From Malaciobacter marinus (GTDB taxonomy: Bacteria > Campylobacterota > Campylobacteria > Campylobacterales > Arcobacteraceae): a stretch of 64,000 bases of DNA. The position numbers and the translations under genes are program-made. Below are positions 54,460 through 62,099 of the stretch, in pieces. The stretch spans positions 2,542,001-2,606,000 of the forward strand of contig NZ_CP032101.1 in assembly GCF_003544855.1 (NCBI RefSeq). Direction: 5' to 3'. How positions within the stretch are numbered: position 1 is the first letter of the stretch; every line of letters begins with the position of its first letter. The notes under the pieces were generated by a model. The model did no database searches. It saw only the letters and a list, made by a program, of their open reading frames with translations, and was not told the DNA's origin.

Positions 54460-56637
54460 ATGAAATTCAATTTTAATTCTTTTTTGATATTTACTTTACT
54501 TTGTATTTGCTTTGTTGAATCCCATGCAAAAAATAATATATTAATTATAAGTTCATATACTAAAGGGAACACTCTAAGTGATAAGATCACTAATCCTATA
54601 TTAAAGAATTTAAATAAGAATAATATTCATTCAAATATAATTTATTTAAATTCTTTAAGAAAAAACAAAAAAAAGTATGAAGAACTAATAAAAAAGTTAT
54701 TTTTAATTGAGTTAGATACTATTAATTATGATATATTAGTTGCCATTGATGATGCTGCTTATGAATTCTTAAAAAGAAATTATAAAAAACCAAAAGAAAA
54801 TCAGAAAATAGTTTTTGTAGGGAATAAAATAAGTAATCCTGAAAATACATTTTTTGACAAAACATATGGAATTATAAAAGATGTGGATATATTAGGAAAT
54901 GTGTCTTTAATACAAAAATTTTTTCCTGATATAAAAAAAATACACATAATTAATAATAATTTAACATCTACACAAAATAGTAACTACAAAATTTTCAATA
55001 TAAATAATAAAGAAATTAAAGTTATCTTTCAATTGTATGATAATCTCAACTCTTTAAAATACAGATTTAATAAATTTAAAAAAGATGAAGCAGTTTTGTT
55101 TATTAAGTTACAAAAAGATGAAAATAATGAATTATTGCTTTTCAATCATATTAAAAAAATCTTAAATTCTTTTAAAATACCTATATTTATAACTGATACA
55201 ATATATAGTGGGCAAAGTCCAATTGGAGGTAAACTAATTGATATAGGAAGTATAGGAGAACAGATATCTTCACTTCTTATTAAAATATTAAATAATAAAA
55301 AAATAGAAGAAAAAATTACATTTAATAAAGATTATATATATATTTTTGATTATGAAAAAGTAAAAGAATTTAATGTAAACCCTTTAATATTGCATAAACC
55401 TTTTACTTATGTAAATTCTTATTTATCAATTTTTGAAAAAGACAATATTCTAATAAATTTTGTTTTTATAATATCTCCTTTTTTATTAATAGTGATTTTT
55501 TTACTTTTATATATTCTTTTTTTTAAAATTAAAAATAAAAAAATAATCGAACAAAGGCTTAAAGTAGACAAAGTTTTATTAGATGCAATAAAGACTCCTG
55601 TTGTATGGCAAAATGACAAAGGTGAAATAATAAATTCAAATTCTGAGTTCTCAGAATTTCTAGAACTTACTTTCTTAAAAAAAACAACGCTAAAAGAATT
55701 CTTAAAAAATAATAATTTTAACTTACTATTAGAAAAATTAAGAACATATAATAAATATAAGAATAATCCTGATGAAATAGCATTAATAAGTGATAATACT
55801 TATAAAATATATTTTATTAATGAAACTGAATATTATGAAGGTATATTTAACACAAAAGGTAAATTTACAGTTTTTGCTGATATAACAAAAGAGAGGCTAA
55901 CATTAGAAGAGAAAATAAAGAATCAAGAGTTTATGATACAACAATCAAAGTTAGCAGAGATAGGAGAGATATTTTCATCAATTGCGCACCAATGGAAGAC
56001 ACCACTTTTAGAGATAACAACAATAGCACAAGAACAAATATATTCAACAGATAAAAAGATAATAGATGAAGAGAATAATGCATTTGTAAATGATATCATG
56101 GTACAAGTTAGATATATGGGTGAAACAATAAGTGATTTTCAAAACTTTATAATGCCCTCAACAAGAAAAGTCACATTTAATATATCAGAAGCAGTTACAA
56201 AGATGTTAGAAATAATAAATCATAATATAAAATATAATTATATAAAGACAAATGTACAAGTACAAGAAGATGCAAATTTAAATATTTTAGGTTATAAAAA
56301 TGAACTTATGCAAATACTGTTAAATATAGTAAATAATGCAAAAGATTCAATAGTAAAAAGAAGAAAAGAGAAAAGAATAAAAGAAGGAATAATAAATATA
56401 GATATAAAAAATATCCAAAATGATGTATTAATTCAAATAGAAGATAATGGTGGAGGAATACCAAAAGAACATATTAATAATATATTTAAACCTTACTATA
56501 CAACAAAGGAGAGTGGACATGGTATAGGGTTATATATGGCAAAACTTATAATTGAAGATAAAATGGATGGCACAATTGAAGTTGAAAATACTAATAATGG
56601 AGCTATGTTTAGTATTAAGTTAAAAACAATTTATTAA
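54460..56637 (+). CDS. Sensor histidine kinase with fused periplasmic substrate-binding domain
   Basis: 725 residues: a signal peptide (about 1-23), a two-lobed periplasmic domain (about 25-320) resembling the ABC_sub_bind/TrpX family (NILIISSYTKGNTLSDKITNPIL, then VFVGNKISNPENTFFDKTYGI), a TM (about 330-356), a PAS-like domain (about 365-475), a dimerisation box with H510 in SSIAHQWKTPLLEIT, and an HATPase domain (NIVNNAKDSI, IEDNGGGIPKEH, SGHGIGLYMAK). It probably senses a small ligand directly. It lies upstream of the carrier/amidohydrolase module, which it may control, but no response regulator gene is adjacent. Confidence 0.88.
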   Translation: MKFNFNSFLIFTLLCICFVESHAKNNILIISSYTKGNTLSDKITNPILKNLNKNNIHSNIIYLNSLRKNKKKYEELIKKLFLIELDTINYDILVAIDDAAYEFLKRNYKKPKENQKIVFVGNKISNPENTFFDKTYGIIKDVDILGNVSLIQKFFPDIKKIHIINNNLTSTQNSNYKIFNINNKEIKVIFQLYDNLNSLKYRFNKFKKDEAVLFIKLQKDENNELLLFNHIKKILNSFKIPIFITDTIYSGQSPIGGKLIDIGSIGEQISSLLIKILNNKKIEEKITFNKDYIYIFDYEKVKEFNVNPLILHKPFTYVNSYLSIFEKDNILINFVFIISPFLLIVIFLLLYILFFKIKNKKIIEQRLKVDKVLLDAIKTPVVWQNDKGEIINSNSEFSEFLELTFLKKTTLKEFLKNNNFNLLLEKLRTYNKYKNNPDEIALISDNTYKIYFINETEYYEGIFNTKGKFTVFADITKERLTLEEKIKNQEFMIQQSKLAEIGEIFSSIAHQWKTPLLEITTIAQEQIYSTDKKIIDEENNAFVNDIMVQVRYMGETISDFQNFIMPSTRKVTFNISEAVTKMLEIINHNIKYNYIKTNVQVQEDANLNILGYKNELMQILLNIVNNAKDSIVKRRKEKRIKEGIINIDIKNIQNDVLIQIEDNGGGIPKEHINNIFKPYYTTKESGHGIGLYMAKLIIEDKMDGTIEVENTNNGAMFSIKLKTIY

Positions 56638-56719: not shown

Positions 56720-57988
56720 ATGGAAATATTTAAAATTTTATTAGCTTTAATGACTAGTGTCGCAGTTGTTTACTTTTTAGTAAAAAAGTATGATACTAAA
56801 CTAGTTTTACTAGTTGCTGGTGTTTTTATGGCATTAGTTGCGTTAGAGCCAATGACAGCATTTAATGCATTTGCAAATAGAATGGCTACAAATGGACTCA
56901 TTCAAGCAATATGTTCTGTTTTAGGTTTTGCCGCAGTTGTGAAAATTACAGGTTGTGATAAACATATGATTAATATGTTAGCAGGTATTTTAAAAAGAAC
57001 AGGTATTTTCTTAGTTCCTGTAGCTACACTTTTAACTTTTACAATTAATATTGCTGTTCCCTCTGCTTCTGGTTGTGCTGCAGCTATTGGAGCTATTTTT
57101 ATTCCTTTATTAATCCACTCTGGCGTAAGTCCAGTTATGGCTGCAGCAGCAGTTTTTAGTGGAACTTATGGAAGTATATTAAGTCCTGGATTATCTCATA
57201 ATATATTCGTAGCAAAATTAGCAAATATACCAGTGTTAGAAGTAATTAATGCACATAAAATGGCAACAATATCAAGTATTGTTGTAGCTGCAATTACATT
57301 AGGTATAGTAGCTATATATTTAAAAGAACATAAAGGGTATGTAAGTACAGATGAAGATTTTAAAGTAGATACAGAGTTTAAAGTAAATCCAATATTTGCA
57401 TTAGTAAATATAGTACCTCTTGTAATATTAATATTAGGATTTACAGGAGCTGTACCTGCATTAAAAATGGGTGTTGCTCAAGCTATGTTAATTGGTGCAT
57501 TTATAGCTGTGATAATTACAAGAACAAGCCCTTCAGAAGTTTCTAAAAAATTCTTTGATGGGATGGGTGGAGCATATGCAAATATTTTAGGTATTATCAT
57601 TACTGCTACTGTTTTTGTTTCTGGTCTTAAAGCTTTAGGATTAATAGATATATTCATTGATATTATTATCTCTAATCCAAGCTTAGCAGGAATTGGTGCA
57701 ACTCTTGGGCCTTTTTTTCTATCCATAATGACAGGTTCTGGAGATGCTGCTTCTTTTACTTTTAATGAAATTATTACTTTTCATGCAAACACTTTTGGTA
57801 TGAGTATTGAAAATATGGGTTCTTTAATTGTTCTAAGTGGTGCAATTGGTAGAACAATGTCACCATTAGCAGGAGCAGCTATTATATGTGCAGGCTTTGC
57901 AAAAGTTTCTACAATTGATGTTGTTAAAAGAACATCTTTTGGAATGGTCCTAGCTTTAATTACCGTTTATATTATATTAGCTATATAA
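56720..57988 (+). CDS. DcuC-family anaerobic C4-dicarboxylate-type carrier, copy 1
   Basis: 422 residues with about 11-12 hydrophobic helices. Family features include GCDKHMINMLAGILKRTGIFLVP, NIAVPSASGCAAAIGAIFIPLL and FSGTYGSILSPGLSHN. The DcuC family moves C4-dicarboxylates such as fumarate, malate, succinate and aspartate, but neighbours suggest an amide or amino-acid derivative as cargo (inference). A second copy at 59571 is highly similar, identical over a 302-bp block. Its substrate-loop residues differ slightly (SPGLSHNIF here, NPGLSHNPF in copy 2), so the two may differ in specificity. Confidence 0.85.
   Translation: MEIFKILLALMTSVAVVYFLVKKYDTKLVLLVAGVFMALVALEPMTAFNAFANRMATNGLIQAICSVLGFAAVVKITGCDKHMINMLAGILKRTGIFLVPVATLLTFTINIAVPSASGCAAAIGAIFIPLLIHSGVSPVMAAAAVFSGTYGSILSPGLSHNIFVAKLANIPVLEVINAHKMATISSIVVAAITLGIVAIYLKEHKGYVSTDEDFKVDTEFKVNPIFALVNIVPLVILILGFTGAVPALKMGVAQAMLIGAFIAVIITRTSPSEVSKKFFDGMGGAYANILGIIITATVFVSGLKALGLIDIFIDIIISNPSLAGIGATLGPFFLSIMTGSGDAASFTFNEIITFHANTFGMSIENMGSLIVLSGAIGRTMSPLAGAAIICAGFAKVSTIDVVKRTSFGMVLALITVYIILAI
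57338..57639 (+). repeat. 302-bp direct repeat inside DcuC-like gene, copy 1
   Basis: This segment is identical base for base to 60189-60490 (offset 2851). The identity breaks sharply at both ends: one base before (GGG versus GGA), and immediately after AAAGCTTTAGG. Shorter near-identical blocks occur elsewhere in the two genes. Confidence 0.95.
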
Positions 57989-58008
57989 AAAGTCACTTTT
58001 AGTTCACT
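57988..58008 (+). promoter_or_regulatory. Direct-repeat operator-like motif, copy A
   Basis: AGTCACTTTTAGTTCACT at 57991-58008, preceded by AAA. It consists of two TCAC units 11 bp apart, in the form AGTCAC-N6-TTCACT. With its flank it matches 59457-59477 at 20 of 21 positions. A -10-like TAAAAT (58018-58023) follows and leads to the amidohydrolase gene at 58058, so the motif would cover the -35 region. Confidence 0.65.
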
Positions 58009-58057
58009 CTGAGCGGTTAAAATTTTTTTAATACTATATTATATTAAGGAGTATCAA

Positions 58058-59371
58058 ATGAGCAATATTCATGAAGAGGTTAAAGTTCTTGAAAAAGAGC
58101 TTGTTGAAACAAGAAGATTTTTCCATTCTCACCCAGAAACAGGTTGGCTTACTTTTTTTACTACAGCTACTATTATAGATAAGTTAAAAAAATTAGGATA
58201 TGATTTAAAGATGGCAGATGAAATTGTATCTGTGCAACACCAACTTGGTCTTGGAAATAAAGAGCAAATTGAGCAAGCAAAAAAAAGAGCTAAGAGCTTA
58301 TTAAATGATGATTTACATCACTTAGTAGATGAAATGAAAGATGGTCTAACTGGTGTTGTTGCTTCAATTGATACAAATATAGAAGGTCCAACTACAGCTT
58401 TTAGATTTGACATTGATGGTGTTGATGTAACAGAAAGCAAAGATGATACACATATTCCATTTAAAGAAGGGTTCTCTTCAGATATTGAAGGAATTACTCA
58501 TGCTTGTGGACATGATGGACATACTACTATTGGTTTAGGCCTTGCAAAACTTATTAGTGAAAATAAAGATAAATTTAAAGGAAAATTTATTTTTATATTT
58601 CAACCAGGAGAAGAGGGTTGTAGAGGTGCAGTAGGAATGGAACCTACAGGAATTTTAAATGATGTTGATTATCTTATTGGAGCTCATATTGGTTTCCAAG
58701 CAAAAGAAAATAAAGGTATTATTTGTGGAATAAATAAATTTTTATCAACTTCAAAATTTGATGTTTATTTTACAGGGACATCTGCTCATGCAGCAGGAGC
58801 ACCTCAAGAAGGTTGCAATGCATTACTTGCTGCTAGTGAAGCTGCAATTCAAATGCATGCAATTACAAGACATGCTGATGGAGTAACAAGAATCAATGTT
58901 GGAGTCTTAAAAGCAGGAGAAGGAAGAAATGTAATTGCCCCTAATGCATTTATGGCATGCGAAACAAGAGGTGTAACTACTGAGTTAAATAATTTTATGA
59001 AACAAAAATGTATTGATATTTTAGAAGGTGTTTCAAAAATACATTCAGTTAAATACAAATTAGTTGAAACTGGTGGTACAGCTGGAGGTGATAGTAGTAA
59101 AGAAATTACAAAATTATTTAAAGAAGCTGCTTTAGAATCACCTTTTATTGAAGATGACTTAATTGTAGAAGAGTTTGATTTTGGAGCTTGTGAAGATTTT
59201 GCACACTTTATGAGAACTGTACAAAAAAATGGAGGAGAAAGTGGTTATGCAATGATTGGAACAAAATTAGCAGCTGGACACCACAATGAAGCTTTTGATT
59301 TTGATGAAAACTGCCTTGTATCTGGACTTGATATATTCTACAGATTAGCTTTTAAATTAAATAGAAAATAA
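58058..59371 (+). CDS. M20-family amidohydrolase (AbgA-like)
   Basis: A 437-residue zinc amidohydrolase of the M20D / aminobenzoyl-glutamate utilisation type: FHSHPETGW near the N-terminus, an inserted helical segment (about 60-105), metal ligands in THACGHDGHTTIG and FQPGEEGCRGA, GAHIG, and the C-terminal AGHHNEAFDFDE. It would cleave an N-acyl or N-aroyl amino acid such as p-aminobenzoyl-glutamate or indole-conjugated amino acids; the substrate is unproven. A strong AAGGAG site precedes the ATG. It alternates with DcuC-like carriers, suggesting uptake followed by hydrolysis. Confidence 0.88.
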   Translation: MSNIHEEVKVLEKELVETRRFFHSHPETGWLTFFTTATIIDKLKKLGYDLKMADEIVSVQHQLGLGNKEQIEQAKKRAKSLLNDDLHHLVDEMKDGLTGVVASIDTNIEGPTTAFRFDIDGVDVTESKDDTHIPFKEGFSSDIEGITHACGHDGHTTIGLGLAKLISENKDKFKGKFIFIFQPGEEGCRGAVGMEPTGILNDVDYLIGAHIGFQAKENKGIICGINKFLSTSKFDVYFTGTSAHAAGAPQEGCNALLAASEAAIQMHAITRHADGVTRINVGVLKAGEGRNVIAPNAFMACETRGVTTELNNFMKQKCIDILEGVSKIHSVKYKLVETGGTAGGDSSKEITKLFKEAALESPFIEDDLIVEEFDFGACEDFAHFMRTVQKNGGESGYAMIGTKLAAGHHNEAFDFDENCLVSGLDIFYRLAFKLNRK

Positions 59372-59376
59372 TAAAA

Positions 59377-59400
59377 AGGAGGCAAATTTATTTGCCTCTT
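59377..59400 (+). terminator. Intrinsic terminator after the AbgA-like gene
   Basis: GAGGCAAA / TTTGCCTC with a 4-nt loop, extended by A-T and G-T pairs, just past the stop codon. It separates this gene from the second carrier gene. Confidence 0.8.
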
Positions 59401-59456
59401 ATACTATTAATGTATCCTAACTAAAATTAACTAGTTAAACAATATCTTAAAACTTT

Positions 59457-59477
59457 AAAAGTCACGTTTAGTTCACT
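59457..59477 (+). promoter_or_regulatory. Direct-repeat operator-like motif, copy B
   Basis: AGTCACGTTTAGTTCACT at 59460-59477 with an AAA flank: the same AGTCAC-N6-TTCACT pattern as copy A. It ends 7 bases before a TATAAT (59485-59490), so it would overlie the -35 region of the second DcuC-like gene. Confidence 0.65.
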
Positions 59478-59484
59478 TTAAAAC

Positions 59485-59490
59485 TATAAT
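59485..59490 (+). promoter_or_regulatory. Putative -10 box of the second DcuC-like gene
   Basis: ACTATAAT, 80 bases before the ATG at 59571. The predicted leader of about 75 nt contains an AGGGAG without a start codon and an A6GTT-AACT6 inverted repeat (59512-59530). The true ribosome-binding site is AAGGA shortly before the ATG. Confidence 0.5.
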
Positions 59491-59570
59491 ATTTTATAAA
59501 AGGGAGTTAATAAAAAAGTTTAACTTTTTTTTAAGTCTACATTTGTAGAAAAAAAATCAAGGATACATTC

Positions 59571-60842
59571 ATGGAAACTTTAAAAATTCTAATCGCCATT
59601 GCGACAATTATTGCAGTAGTATATTTTTTAATAAAAAAATATGATACTAAATTAGTTTTATTAGTTGCTGGTGTTTTTATGGCATTAGTTGCATTAGAGC
59701 CAATGACAGCATTTGATGCATTTGCAAAAAGAATGACAACGGGTGGTCTCATTCAAGCAATATGTTCTGTTTTAGGTTTTGCAGCAGTTATGAAAATTAC
59801 AGGTTGTGATAAACATATGATTAATATGTTAGCAGGTGTTTTAAAAAGAACAGGTATTTTCTTAGTTCCTGTAGCTACACTTTTAACTTTTTCAATCAAT
59901 ATTGCCTTACCTTCTGCTGCTGGATGTGCTGCAGCTGTTGGTTCAATCTTCATTCCTTTACTAATTTATTCTGGTGTAAGACCAGTTATGGCTGCAGCAG
60001 CAGTTTTTAGTGGAACTTATGGAAGTATGCTAAATCCAGGTTTATCACATAACCCTTTTGTAGCAAAATTAGCAAATGTTCCAGTATTAGAAGTAATTAA
60101 TGCTCATAAAATGGCAACAATATCAAGTATTGTTGTAGCTGCAATTACTTTAGCAATAGTAGCTATATATTTAAAAGAACATAAAGGATATGTAAGTACA
60201 GATGAAGATTTTAAAGTAGATACAGAGTTTAAAGTAAATCCAATATTTGCATTAGTAAATATAGTACCTCTTGTAATATTAATATTAGGATTTACAGGAG
60301 CTGTACCTGCATTAAAAATGGGTGTTGCTCAAGCTATGTTAATTGGTGCATTTATAGCTGTGATAATTACAAGAACAAGCCCTTCAGAAGTTTCTAAAAA
60401 ATTCTTTGATGGGATGGGTGGAGCATATGCAAATATTTTAGGTATTATCATTACTGCTACTGTTTTTGTTTCTGGTCTTAAAGCTTTAGGTGCTGTTGAT
60501 GCATTTATTCAAATCTTAATCAATAATCCGAGTTTAGCAGGAATTGGGGCAACGGTTGGTCCATTTTTACTTGCAATTGTTGTAGGTTCAGGAGATGCTG
60601 CAGCATTTGCATTTAATGAAGTTGTAACACCTCATGCTGAAAGTTTAGGAATGAGTATAGAAAATATGGGTTCTCTTGCTGCATTAAGTGGAGCAATCGG
60701 TAGAACAATGTCACCATTAGCAGGAGCAGCTATTGTATGTGCAGGCTTTGCAAAAGTTTCTACTATTGATGTTGTTAAAAGAACATCTTTAGGAATGATC
60801 TTAGCTTTAATTACAGCATATGTTGTACTTGTTGTTATGTAA
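59571..60842 (+). CDS. DcuC-family anaerobic C4-dicarboxylate-type carrier, copy 2
   Basis: 423 residues, paralogue of the gene at 56720 with the same helices and family motifs (SINIALPSAAGCAAAVGSIFIPLL, SGTYGSMLNPGLSHNPF). The middle third is identical to copy 1 at both DNA and protein level. The ends diverge: after ALKALG, copy 1 continues LIDIFIDIIISN while this copy has AVDAFIQILINN. It is followed after 15 bases by the second amidohydrolase, so the two are very likely co-transcribed from the promoter at 59485. Confidence 0.85.
   Translation: METLKILIAIATIIAVVYFLIKKYDTKLVLLVAGVFMALVALEPMTAFDAFAKRMTTGGLIQAICSVLGFAAVMKITGCDKHMINMLAGVLKRTGIFLVPVATLLTFSINIALPSAAGCAAAVGSIFIPLLIYSGVRPVMAAAAVFSGTYGSMLNPGLSHNPFVAKLANVPVLEVINAHKMATISSIVVAAITLAIVAIYLKEHKGYVSTDEDFKVDTEFKVNPIFALVNIVPLVILILGFTGAVPALKMGVAQAMLIGAFIAVIITRTSPSEVSKKFFDGMGGAYANILGIIITATVFVSGLKALGAVDAFIQILINNPSLAGIGATVGPFLLAIVVGSGDAAAFAFNEVVTPHAESLGMSIENMGSLAALSGAIGRTMSPLAGAAIVCAGFAKVSTIDVVKRTSLGMILALITAYVVLVVM
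60189..60490 (+). repeat. 302-bp direct repeat inside DcuC-like gene, copy 2
   Basis: Identical to 57338-57639. Recombination between the two copies would remove or duplicate a 2851-bp unit holding the AbgA-like gene and yield one hybrid carrier gene. Confidence 0.95.
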
Positions 60843-60857
60843 TAAATAGGAAAAAGT

Positions 60858-62099
60858 ATGTTAATTAATGAACAAAGATTAAAGTCTGAACTTGCTGAAA
60901 TAAGTGAGTTTGGTAAATTAGATGGTGGAGGAATTACAAGGCTTGCATTTTCTATTGAAGAAAAAAATGCTAGAGAGTATTTAAAAAAACTAATGCTTGA
61001 AATTGATTTAAAGATAGAAGAAGATGCAATAGGAAATATCTATGCAACATTAACAGGTTCTGAAAATTTAGAACCTGTTATTTCTGGTTCACACTTAGAC
61101 AGTGTTCCTCTTGGTGGATGCTATGATGGAACACTGGGTGTTATGTGTGCACTTGAAGCAATTAGAACTATTAAAGAAAATGATTGTAAACATCTAAGAC
61201 CAATTCAGTTAATTGTTTTTTCATGTGAAGAATCAAGTAGATTTAATATGGCTACTTTAGGTAGTAAAGTTATAACTGGAAAATTAAATCTTGATGATTT
61301 AAAAAGATTAAAAGATAAAACAGGTATTTCAGTTTATGATGCAGCTAAAGATTTTGGTTGTAGTGTAGATGAACTTAATAAAGCTGTTTTAGAAGAAAAT
61401 ACAATGCATTCATATATTGAGTTACATATAGAACAAGGTCCAGTTCTTGAAAATCATCAAATTCCAGTAGGTATTGTTACAGGAATTGCTTCACCTATTA
61501 GATATGAATTAGTTATTAAAGGAAGAGCAGACCACTCAGGAGCAACTCCTATGAGTATGAGAAAAGATGCTCTTGTTACAGCAAGTAAAATTATTATTGG
61601 TGTTCAAGATATTGCACAAAATAAAGGTAGTGATACAGTAGTAGCTACTATTGGTTATGCAAATGCAGTTCCTGGGGTATTAAATGTAATTCCAGGAGAA
61701 GTTAAACTTGGCATTGATATTAGAGATATTGATAAAGACTCATTATTTGAAGTTGATAAATTAGTAAATGAATTAATAAAAGATGTTATTACAGAAGATG
61801 GATTAACTTATGAACTAACACAACTATGTAAGGATACTCCAACAAAACTTGATGATAAAATAGTACAACTATTAGAAAATGAAGCAAATAAATTATCTAT
61901 AAAATCTTTAAGAATGCCTAGTGGTGCTGGACATGATGCAATGCATATGCCTAAAGTATCAAAATATACTGGTATGATATTTGTTCCATGTAAAGAGGGA
62001 ATAAGTCATAATGTAAAAGAAGAGATAAATTTAGAAGATATTTATCAAGCTACAAATGTTCTTGCAAACTCTTTATTAAGTCTTGCAAATGAGAAATAA
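60858..62099 (+). CDS. M20-family hydrolase, N-carbamoyl-amino acid / allantoate amidohydrolase type
   Basis: 413-residue zinc hydrolase of the M20C / AllC-type group: GSHLDSVPLGGCYDGTLGVM (His and Asp ligands), SCEESSRFNMATLGSK, ELHIEQGPVLE, RADHSGATPM and SGAGHDAMHMPK. These motifs mark enzymes that hydrolyse N-carbamoyl-L-amino acids, ureidoglycine or allantoate. The natural substrate cannot be read from sequence. It is paired with the second DcuC-like carrier, mirroring the carrier-amidohydrolase order upstream, and ends at a terminator facing pyrC. Confidence 0.88.
   Translation: MLINEQRLKSELAEISEFGKLDGGGITRLAFSIEEKNAREYLKKLMLEIDLKIEEDAIGNIYATLTGSENLEPVISGSHLDSVPLGGCYDGTLGVMCALEAIRTIKENDCKHLRPIQLIVFSCEESSRFNMATLGSKVITGKLNLDDLKRLKDKTGISVYDAAKDFGCSVDELNKAVLEENTMHSYIELHIEQGPVLENHQIPVGIVTGIASPIRYELVIKGRADHSGATPMSMRKDALVTASKIIIGVQDIAQNKGSDTVVATIGYANAVPGVLNVIPGEVKLGIDIRDIDKDSLFEVDKLVNELIKDVITEDGLTYELTQLCKDTPTKLDDKIVQLLENEANKLSIKSLRMPSGAGHDAMHMPKVSKYTGMIFVPCKEGISHNVKEEINLEDIYQATNVLANSLLSLANEK

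Follow-up and report, generated by a model that had tools for sequence, protein, structure and literature searches.

Which regulator reads the two near-identical 21-bp elements that precede an amidohydrolase gene and a carrier gene in the 64-kb stretch of Malaciobacter marinus DNA analyzed here (the window), and does the sensor histidine kinase encoded just upstream act through it? The initial annotation of this locus had compared the element with an operator of Campylobacter jejuni and suggested that it might point to an unseen partner of the kinase.

Repeated Element in the Window

The elements are located at 57988-58008 (AAAAGTCACTTTTAGTTCACT) and 59457-59477 (AAAAGTCACGTTTAGTTCACT), both are intergenic, and they differ by one mismatch; these positions, the mismatch count and the placement of each copy directly before a -10-like box agree with the initial annotation. 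The two TCAC units that it had described are seen in both copies, 11 bp apart, and the same spacing is kept in the family alignment. The full module consists of an 11-bp direct repeat, TCACTTTTAGT-TCAYTTTA, and a TAnnnT box that comes 10 bp after its second TCAY unit; this distance is the same for both copies. Module 1 (57990-58023, plus strand) contains TCAC at 57993-57996 and 58004-58007 and the -10 box TAAAAT at 58018-58023, with the amidohydrolase gene downstream; module 2 (59459-59492, plus strand) contains TCAC at 59462-59465 and 59473-59476 and the -10 box TAATAT at 59487-59492, with the genes for carrier 2 and a carbamoylase downstream. The 34-bp modules stop 34 bp (amidohydrolase) and 78 bp (carrier 2) 5' of the start codons.

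When up to three mismatches were allowed, modules 1 and 2 were the sole matches of the extended pattern in the whole window, the mean for shuffled sequences being 0.01. A matrix trained on sites from other genomes only, which were collected with a pattern begun with the window and genus sites, placed module 1 first (37.4 bits) and module 2 second (27.7 bits), while the next-best window site scored 11.2 bits and the maximum over 60 simulated windows was 15.3 bits. The identity of the downstream genes played no part in the search pattern behind the training sites. In the window's genome, TCACnTTTAGTTCACT occurs three times at up to one mismatch, and the third copy is found upstream of aspA (aspartase). 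The scan proposed by the initial annotation, WKTCAC-N6-TTCACW, would have misled, because this loose pattern is at chance level genome-wide (104 matches at up to one mismatch vs. 106 for the reversed control).

A separate sequence, TGTCACAGTAACTCCACA, recurs exactly in G000:C1, e.g., at 170422, 204624, 268846, 2080766, 2409848, and 2861349, probably as part of rRNA operon copies.

The aspA Operon and Its Response Regulator

Downstream of the third copy, on the same strand, are the genes for AspA, DcuA, a type II asparaginase, a histidine kinase (HK_asp), and an OmpR/PhoB-type response regulator with receiver and Trans_reg_C domains (RR_asp, G000:C1:2631587-2632255). The RR_asp gene is found inside the module-driven operon in several genera, and the recognition helix is nearly invariant within the RR_asp clade. 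The window's genome has 47 matches to OmpR-type regulators, including paralogs of RR_asp with 58% (C1:2688486) and 56% (C1:312159) identity and a similar recognition helix. RR_asp is the best candidate for the protein that binds the element. In two related genomes (L233 in G069, L234 in G036) the RR_asp gene has a second kinase-regulator pair as its tail-to-tail neighbor, and the regulator of this pair shows 57-59% identity to RR_asp.

Regulators of C. jejuni, taken from one named genome, were told apart by their neighbor genes: we took the DccR gene to be the one beside a hemerythrin-like gene and a kinase gene, the RacR gene to be the one beside dnaJ, and the CprR gene to be the one beside htrA. 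A counterpart of CosR, with 77% identity, is present in the window's genome, one sign of the kinship with Campylobacter that, along with gene content, marks this genome as Arcobacter-like. RR_asp was rejected both as a RacR ortholog (27% identity, other regulators of the window's genome matching RacR at 50%) and as a DccR ortholog (31.5% identity, vs. 51% for L077, the DccR counterpart in the window's genome, which has its own kinase adjacent). The direct repeat bound by DccR in C. jejuni is wTTCAC-N6-TTCACw, positioned over the -35 region. Its half-sites and spacing look like those of the present element, but the loose pattern is at chance in the window's genome. Similarly, DccR and RR_asp are both of the OmpR type, but the recognition helices are the same at some positions only. 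The link to DccR drawn by the initial annotation is thus not supported, either by ortholog assignment or by enrichment of a loose DccR-like consensus. DccR targets have been described as colonization-linked proteins of the periplasm and membrane (PMC9449129).

Conservation in Related Genomes

A search for AGTCACnTTTAGTTCACT with up to one mismatch in 100 relatives yielded 10 matches, vs. none for the reversed control. Two of them are the window sites; among the remaining eight, three precede aspA, one precedes the gene of an SDF carrier and one that of a dCache chemoreceptor, two lie inside genes, and one is near a fumarase gene in reversed orientation. The offset to the -10 box is constant in the site alignment. 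For the full module with up to three mismatches, 104 related genomes gave 83 matches vs. 19 for the reversed control, in a family search that was seeded with the window and genus sites and is hence partly circular. Twenty of these genomes encode an RR_asp ortholog (at least 62% identity) and account for 50 matches vs. 3 in the control, while the other 84 genomes have 33 vs. 16. The same TAnnnT offset is found in 36 collected sites, being itself a part of the collecting pattern; when the gap was lengthened by one base, as a rough check on the spacing, the 104 genomes gave no match.

The module precedes aspA in 19 species. Of the 20 genomes encoding an RR_asp ortholog, 19 have it before aspA, and in the twentieth (G115) the expected place before aspA is taken by a diverged copy that differs at five positions. 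Other genes behind intergenic sites encode FrdC, SDF carriers, dCache chemoreceptors, a Mem_trans-family membrane carrier, and TAXI/NMT1-like, DctP, and peptide binding proteins. No module match was found before a second type of aspA, often present in the same genomes, and eight second-type loci from genomes without the motif-bearing type yielded one match with six mismatches, not before aspA. We regard the 21-base element as a real and widely conserved switch site before genes of aspartate and fumarate use in Arcobacter-like bacteria.

Several matches deserve separate mention. Those inside genes (e.g., L064, L070, and L132-L138) were set aside as probably due to chance, and so was a LemA match in G063, a genome with no close relative of RR_asp. 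Strong copies of the module are found upstream of frdC in several related genomes, and the window's genome has a weak one (11.9 bits) just upstream of this gene (L200:17466-17499, minus strand). Upstream of aspA in G068 (L301) there is no module match; GTCATTCTAAAGTCATTCCATAGTTATATTAT, an 11-bp repeat with a similar distance to TAnnnT, is possibly a diverged site.

Orphan Sensor Kinase

The kinase gene (54460-56637, plus strand) encodes a periplasmic binding-protein-like sensor, a transmembrane (TM) region, a PAS-like domain, and DHp and HATPase domains. As had been annotated, the local gene content includes no adjacent response regulator, and in its own genome the kinase gene is not adjacent to that of RR_asp. 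Overall, the kinase is 58% identical to HK_asp, but the identity is distributed unevenly: 32% in the periplasmic sensor, 49% in the TM region, 44% in the PAS region, and 236 of 237 residues in the DHp and HATPase core. At the DNA level, a tract of 715 bp that spans the DHp and HATPase domains (55908-56622, plus strand) has three mismatches to the HK_asp gene, and its left edge is sharp. Judging by this pattern, the catalytic core of the window kinase is homogenized with the HK_asp core in the window's genome.

In the sister genome G003, this close group is represented by a single kinase. It is closest to the window kinase in the sensor (47%), TM (81%), and PAS (74%) regions, and this ortholog is encoded directly upstream of the RR_asp ortholog (89%). 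Its surroundings include a pyrC-like gene as well as carrier 2 (97% over the portion that the contig covers) and the carbamoylase (96%). The likeness of the G003 kinase and the G003 gene order therefore indicate that the window kinase belongs with RR_asp by descent. The orphan kinase most likely acts through RR_asp, whose gene belongs to the aspartase operon some 33 kb away, and it is likely to be a second sensor of this regulator; the suggestion that the motif might lead to the partner of the kinase is thus borne out at the level of sequence comparison, with RR_asp as the named candidate. We slightly favor the view that gene conversion limited to the catalytic core keeps two sensor-diverged kinases on one response regulator, wiring the second sensor and the carrier and hydrolase genes into an existing aspartate regulon. 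If true, two-component specificity would here be undergoing concerted evolution. Such an arrangement of two sensors on one regulator would be unusual.

The predicted structure of the sensor (mean pLDDT 86) has its best PDB matches in the TrpX-type binding proteins 3lkv, 6hnj, and 3lft, the last solved with L-tryptophan, and HK_asp has the Pfam ABC_sub_bind domain, to which TrpX-type substrate-binding proteins belong. The window domain shares their predicted fold but serves as the sensor of a histidine kinase and is only 14-16% identical to them. The sensor could plausibly respond to an amino acid-related ligand.

Carrier and Hydrolase Genes

The kinase gene is followed by genes of two DcuC-family carriers and two hydrolases, all on the plus strand. 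Carrier 1 (56720-57988, NCBIfam NF037994) has no operator site upstream at up to six mismatches. The target of module 1 is an M20-family amidohydrolase gene (58058-59371, Pfam PF01546, NCBIfam TIGR01891), and that of module 2 is the gene of carrier 2 (59571-60842, NF037994), which is probably co-transcribed with the gene of a hydantoinase/carbamoylase-family amidase (60858-62099, NCBIfam TIGR01879) starting 15 bp after it. Judging by the family assignments, the products of the window genes probably import compounds resembling aspartate and liberate aspartate, which aspartase could then use.

Carriers 1 and 2 are encoded by otherwise diverged tandem genes with a stretch of at least 240 bp of complete DNA identity, which suggests gene conversion there too. 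G045, a more distant genome, has a group of genes (L232:8682-13431) in which a PepE dipeptidase, but not this kinase, accompanies relatives of the carbamoylase, the amidohydrolase, and the carrier.

Proposed Mechanism and Alternatives

We propose, at a probability of about 75%, that the element serves as operator in an aspartate/C4-dicarboxylate regulon and is bound by RR_asp, which is fed by HK_asp and the window kinase and drives the amidohydrolase and carrier 2-carbamoylase units. Phosphorylated RR_asp would bind both 11-bp repeats head to tail, replacing the -35 box, and would most likely bring RNA polymerase to the -10 box that immediately follows; the two kinases, with different periplasmic domains and near-identical catalytic cores, would both feed RR_asp, and the output in the window would be the amidohydrolase unit and the carrier 2-carbamoylase unit. 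The sequences themselves show the motif, its constant position ahead of the -10 box, the genes that adjoin it across many genomes, its linkage to RR_asp, and the identical kinase cores. From these data we infer that RR_asp binds the motif, that phosphotransfer takes place, and that the effect is activating and not repressing, as well as what the ligands and substrates are. The data support the view of the initial annotation that transport and catabolic genes are preceded by an OmpR/PhoB-type site, head to tail and covering the -35 region.

A close parallel in architecture is the Pho box. PhoB recognizes tandem repeats with an 11-bp period located about 10 bp upstream of TAN3T/A (PMC1906773), and the module has both the 11-bp tandem repeats and the spacing to the -10 box reported for PhoB, while its presumed regulator is of the OmpR/PhoB type. 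The half-site (TCAYTTTTA) and the target genes are different, however, and RR_asp scores 86.8 bits vs. the PhoB equivalog cut-off of 296. Because the geometry of the module matches the PhoB report, activation is favored, with RR_asp acting in place of -35 recognition.

In C. jejuni, the OmpR-type RacR represses aspA (PMC6682613) and binds the aspA and dcuB promoters (PMC5293742), so that RacRS, like the system proposed here, is a two-component system of the OmpR type acting on aspA and C4-dicarboxylate carriers. For this reason RR_asp could also bind but repress, blocking the promoter, much as RacR represses aspA. We consider this unlikely, though not to be disregarded: the site does overlap the -35 to -10 region, but its spacing to the -10 box is fixed across sites and equal to that reported for the activator PhoB, and RR_asp, besides not being the RacR ortholog, has a different recognition helix.

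A less probable reading is that the operator is real and of the OmpR type but serves chiefly a different regulator of the subfamily, such as one of the 58 and 56% paralogs, or several paralogs jointly. The similar recognition helices of these paralogs are compatible with it, and in G019 and G076, which have no RR_asp ortholog, similar sites adjoin a paralog 59% identical to RR_asp. RR_asp remains our preferred candidate, however, as the window kinase has the HK_asp core, which is the part that carries specificity, the G003 ortholog of this kinase forms a pair with that of RR_asp, and the sites are concentrated in the RR_asp genomes.

The distance to the -10 box, fixed in all collected sites, could also be expected if the element belonged to a class of promoters recognized by an alternative (ECF-like) sigma factor; this is very improbable, given that the 11-bp tandem repeat is clear, the TAnnnT box is variable and sigma-70-like, the targets share a metabolic theme, and a two-component system is linked. 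Finally, we give almost no credit to chance or to the two copies being remnants of one duplicated segment, the possibility that the initial annotation had named against its own proposal: the carriers are indeed tandem paralogs with a stretch of identical DNA, but the copies are not a duplicated segment because the sequences flanking them are unrelated, carrier 1 has no site, and the motif is kept before unrelated genes in other genera.

Implications for Arcobacter-Like Bacteria

Few regulators of Arcobacter-like bacteria have assigned functions (reviewed in PMC6682613), and a literature search of partial coverage found no publication on this regulon. The analysis provides a concrete case of an orphan kinase tied to a distant partner by a near-identical core, a diverged sensor, and the gene order of a sister genome. 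For aspartate and fumarate metabolism in these bacteria, it also names a candidate regulator and defines an operator-promoter module of 34 bp together with a list of putative targets.
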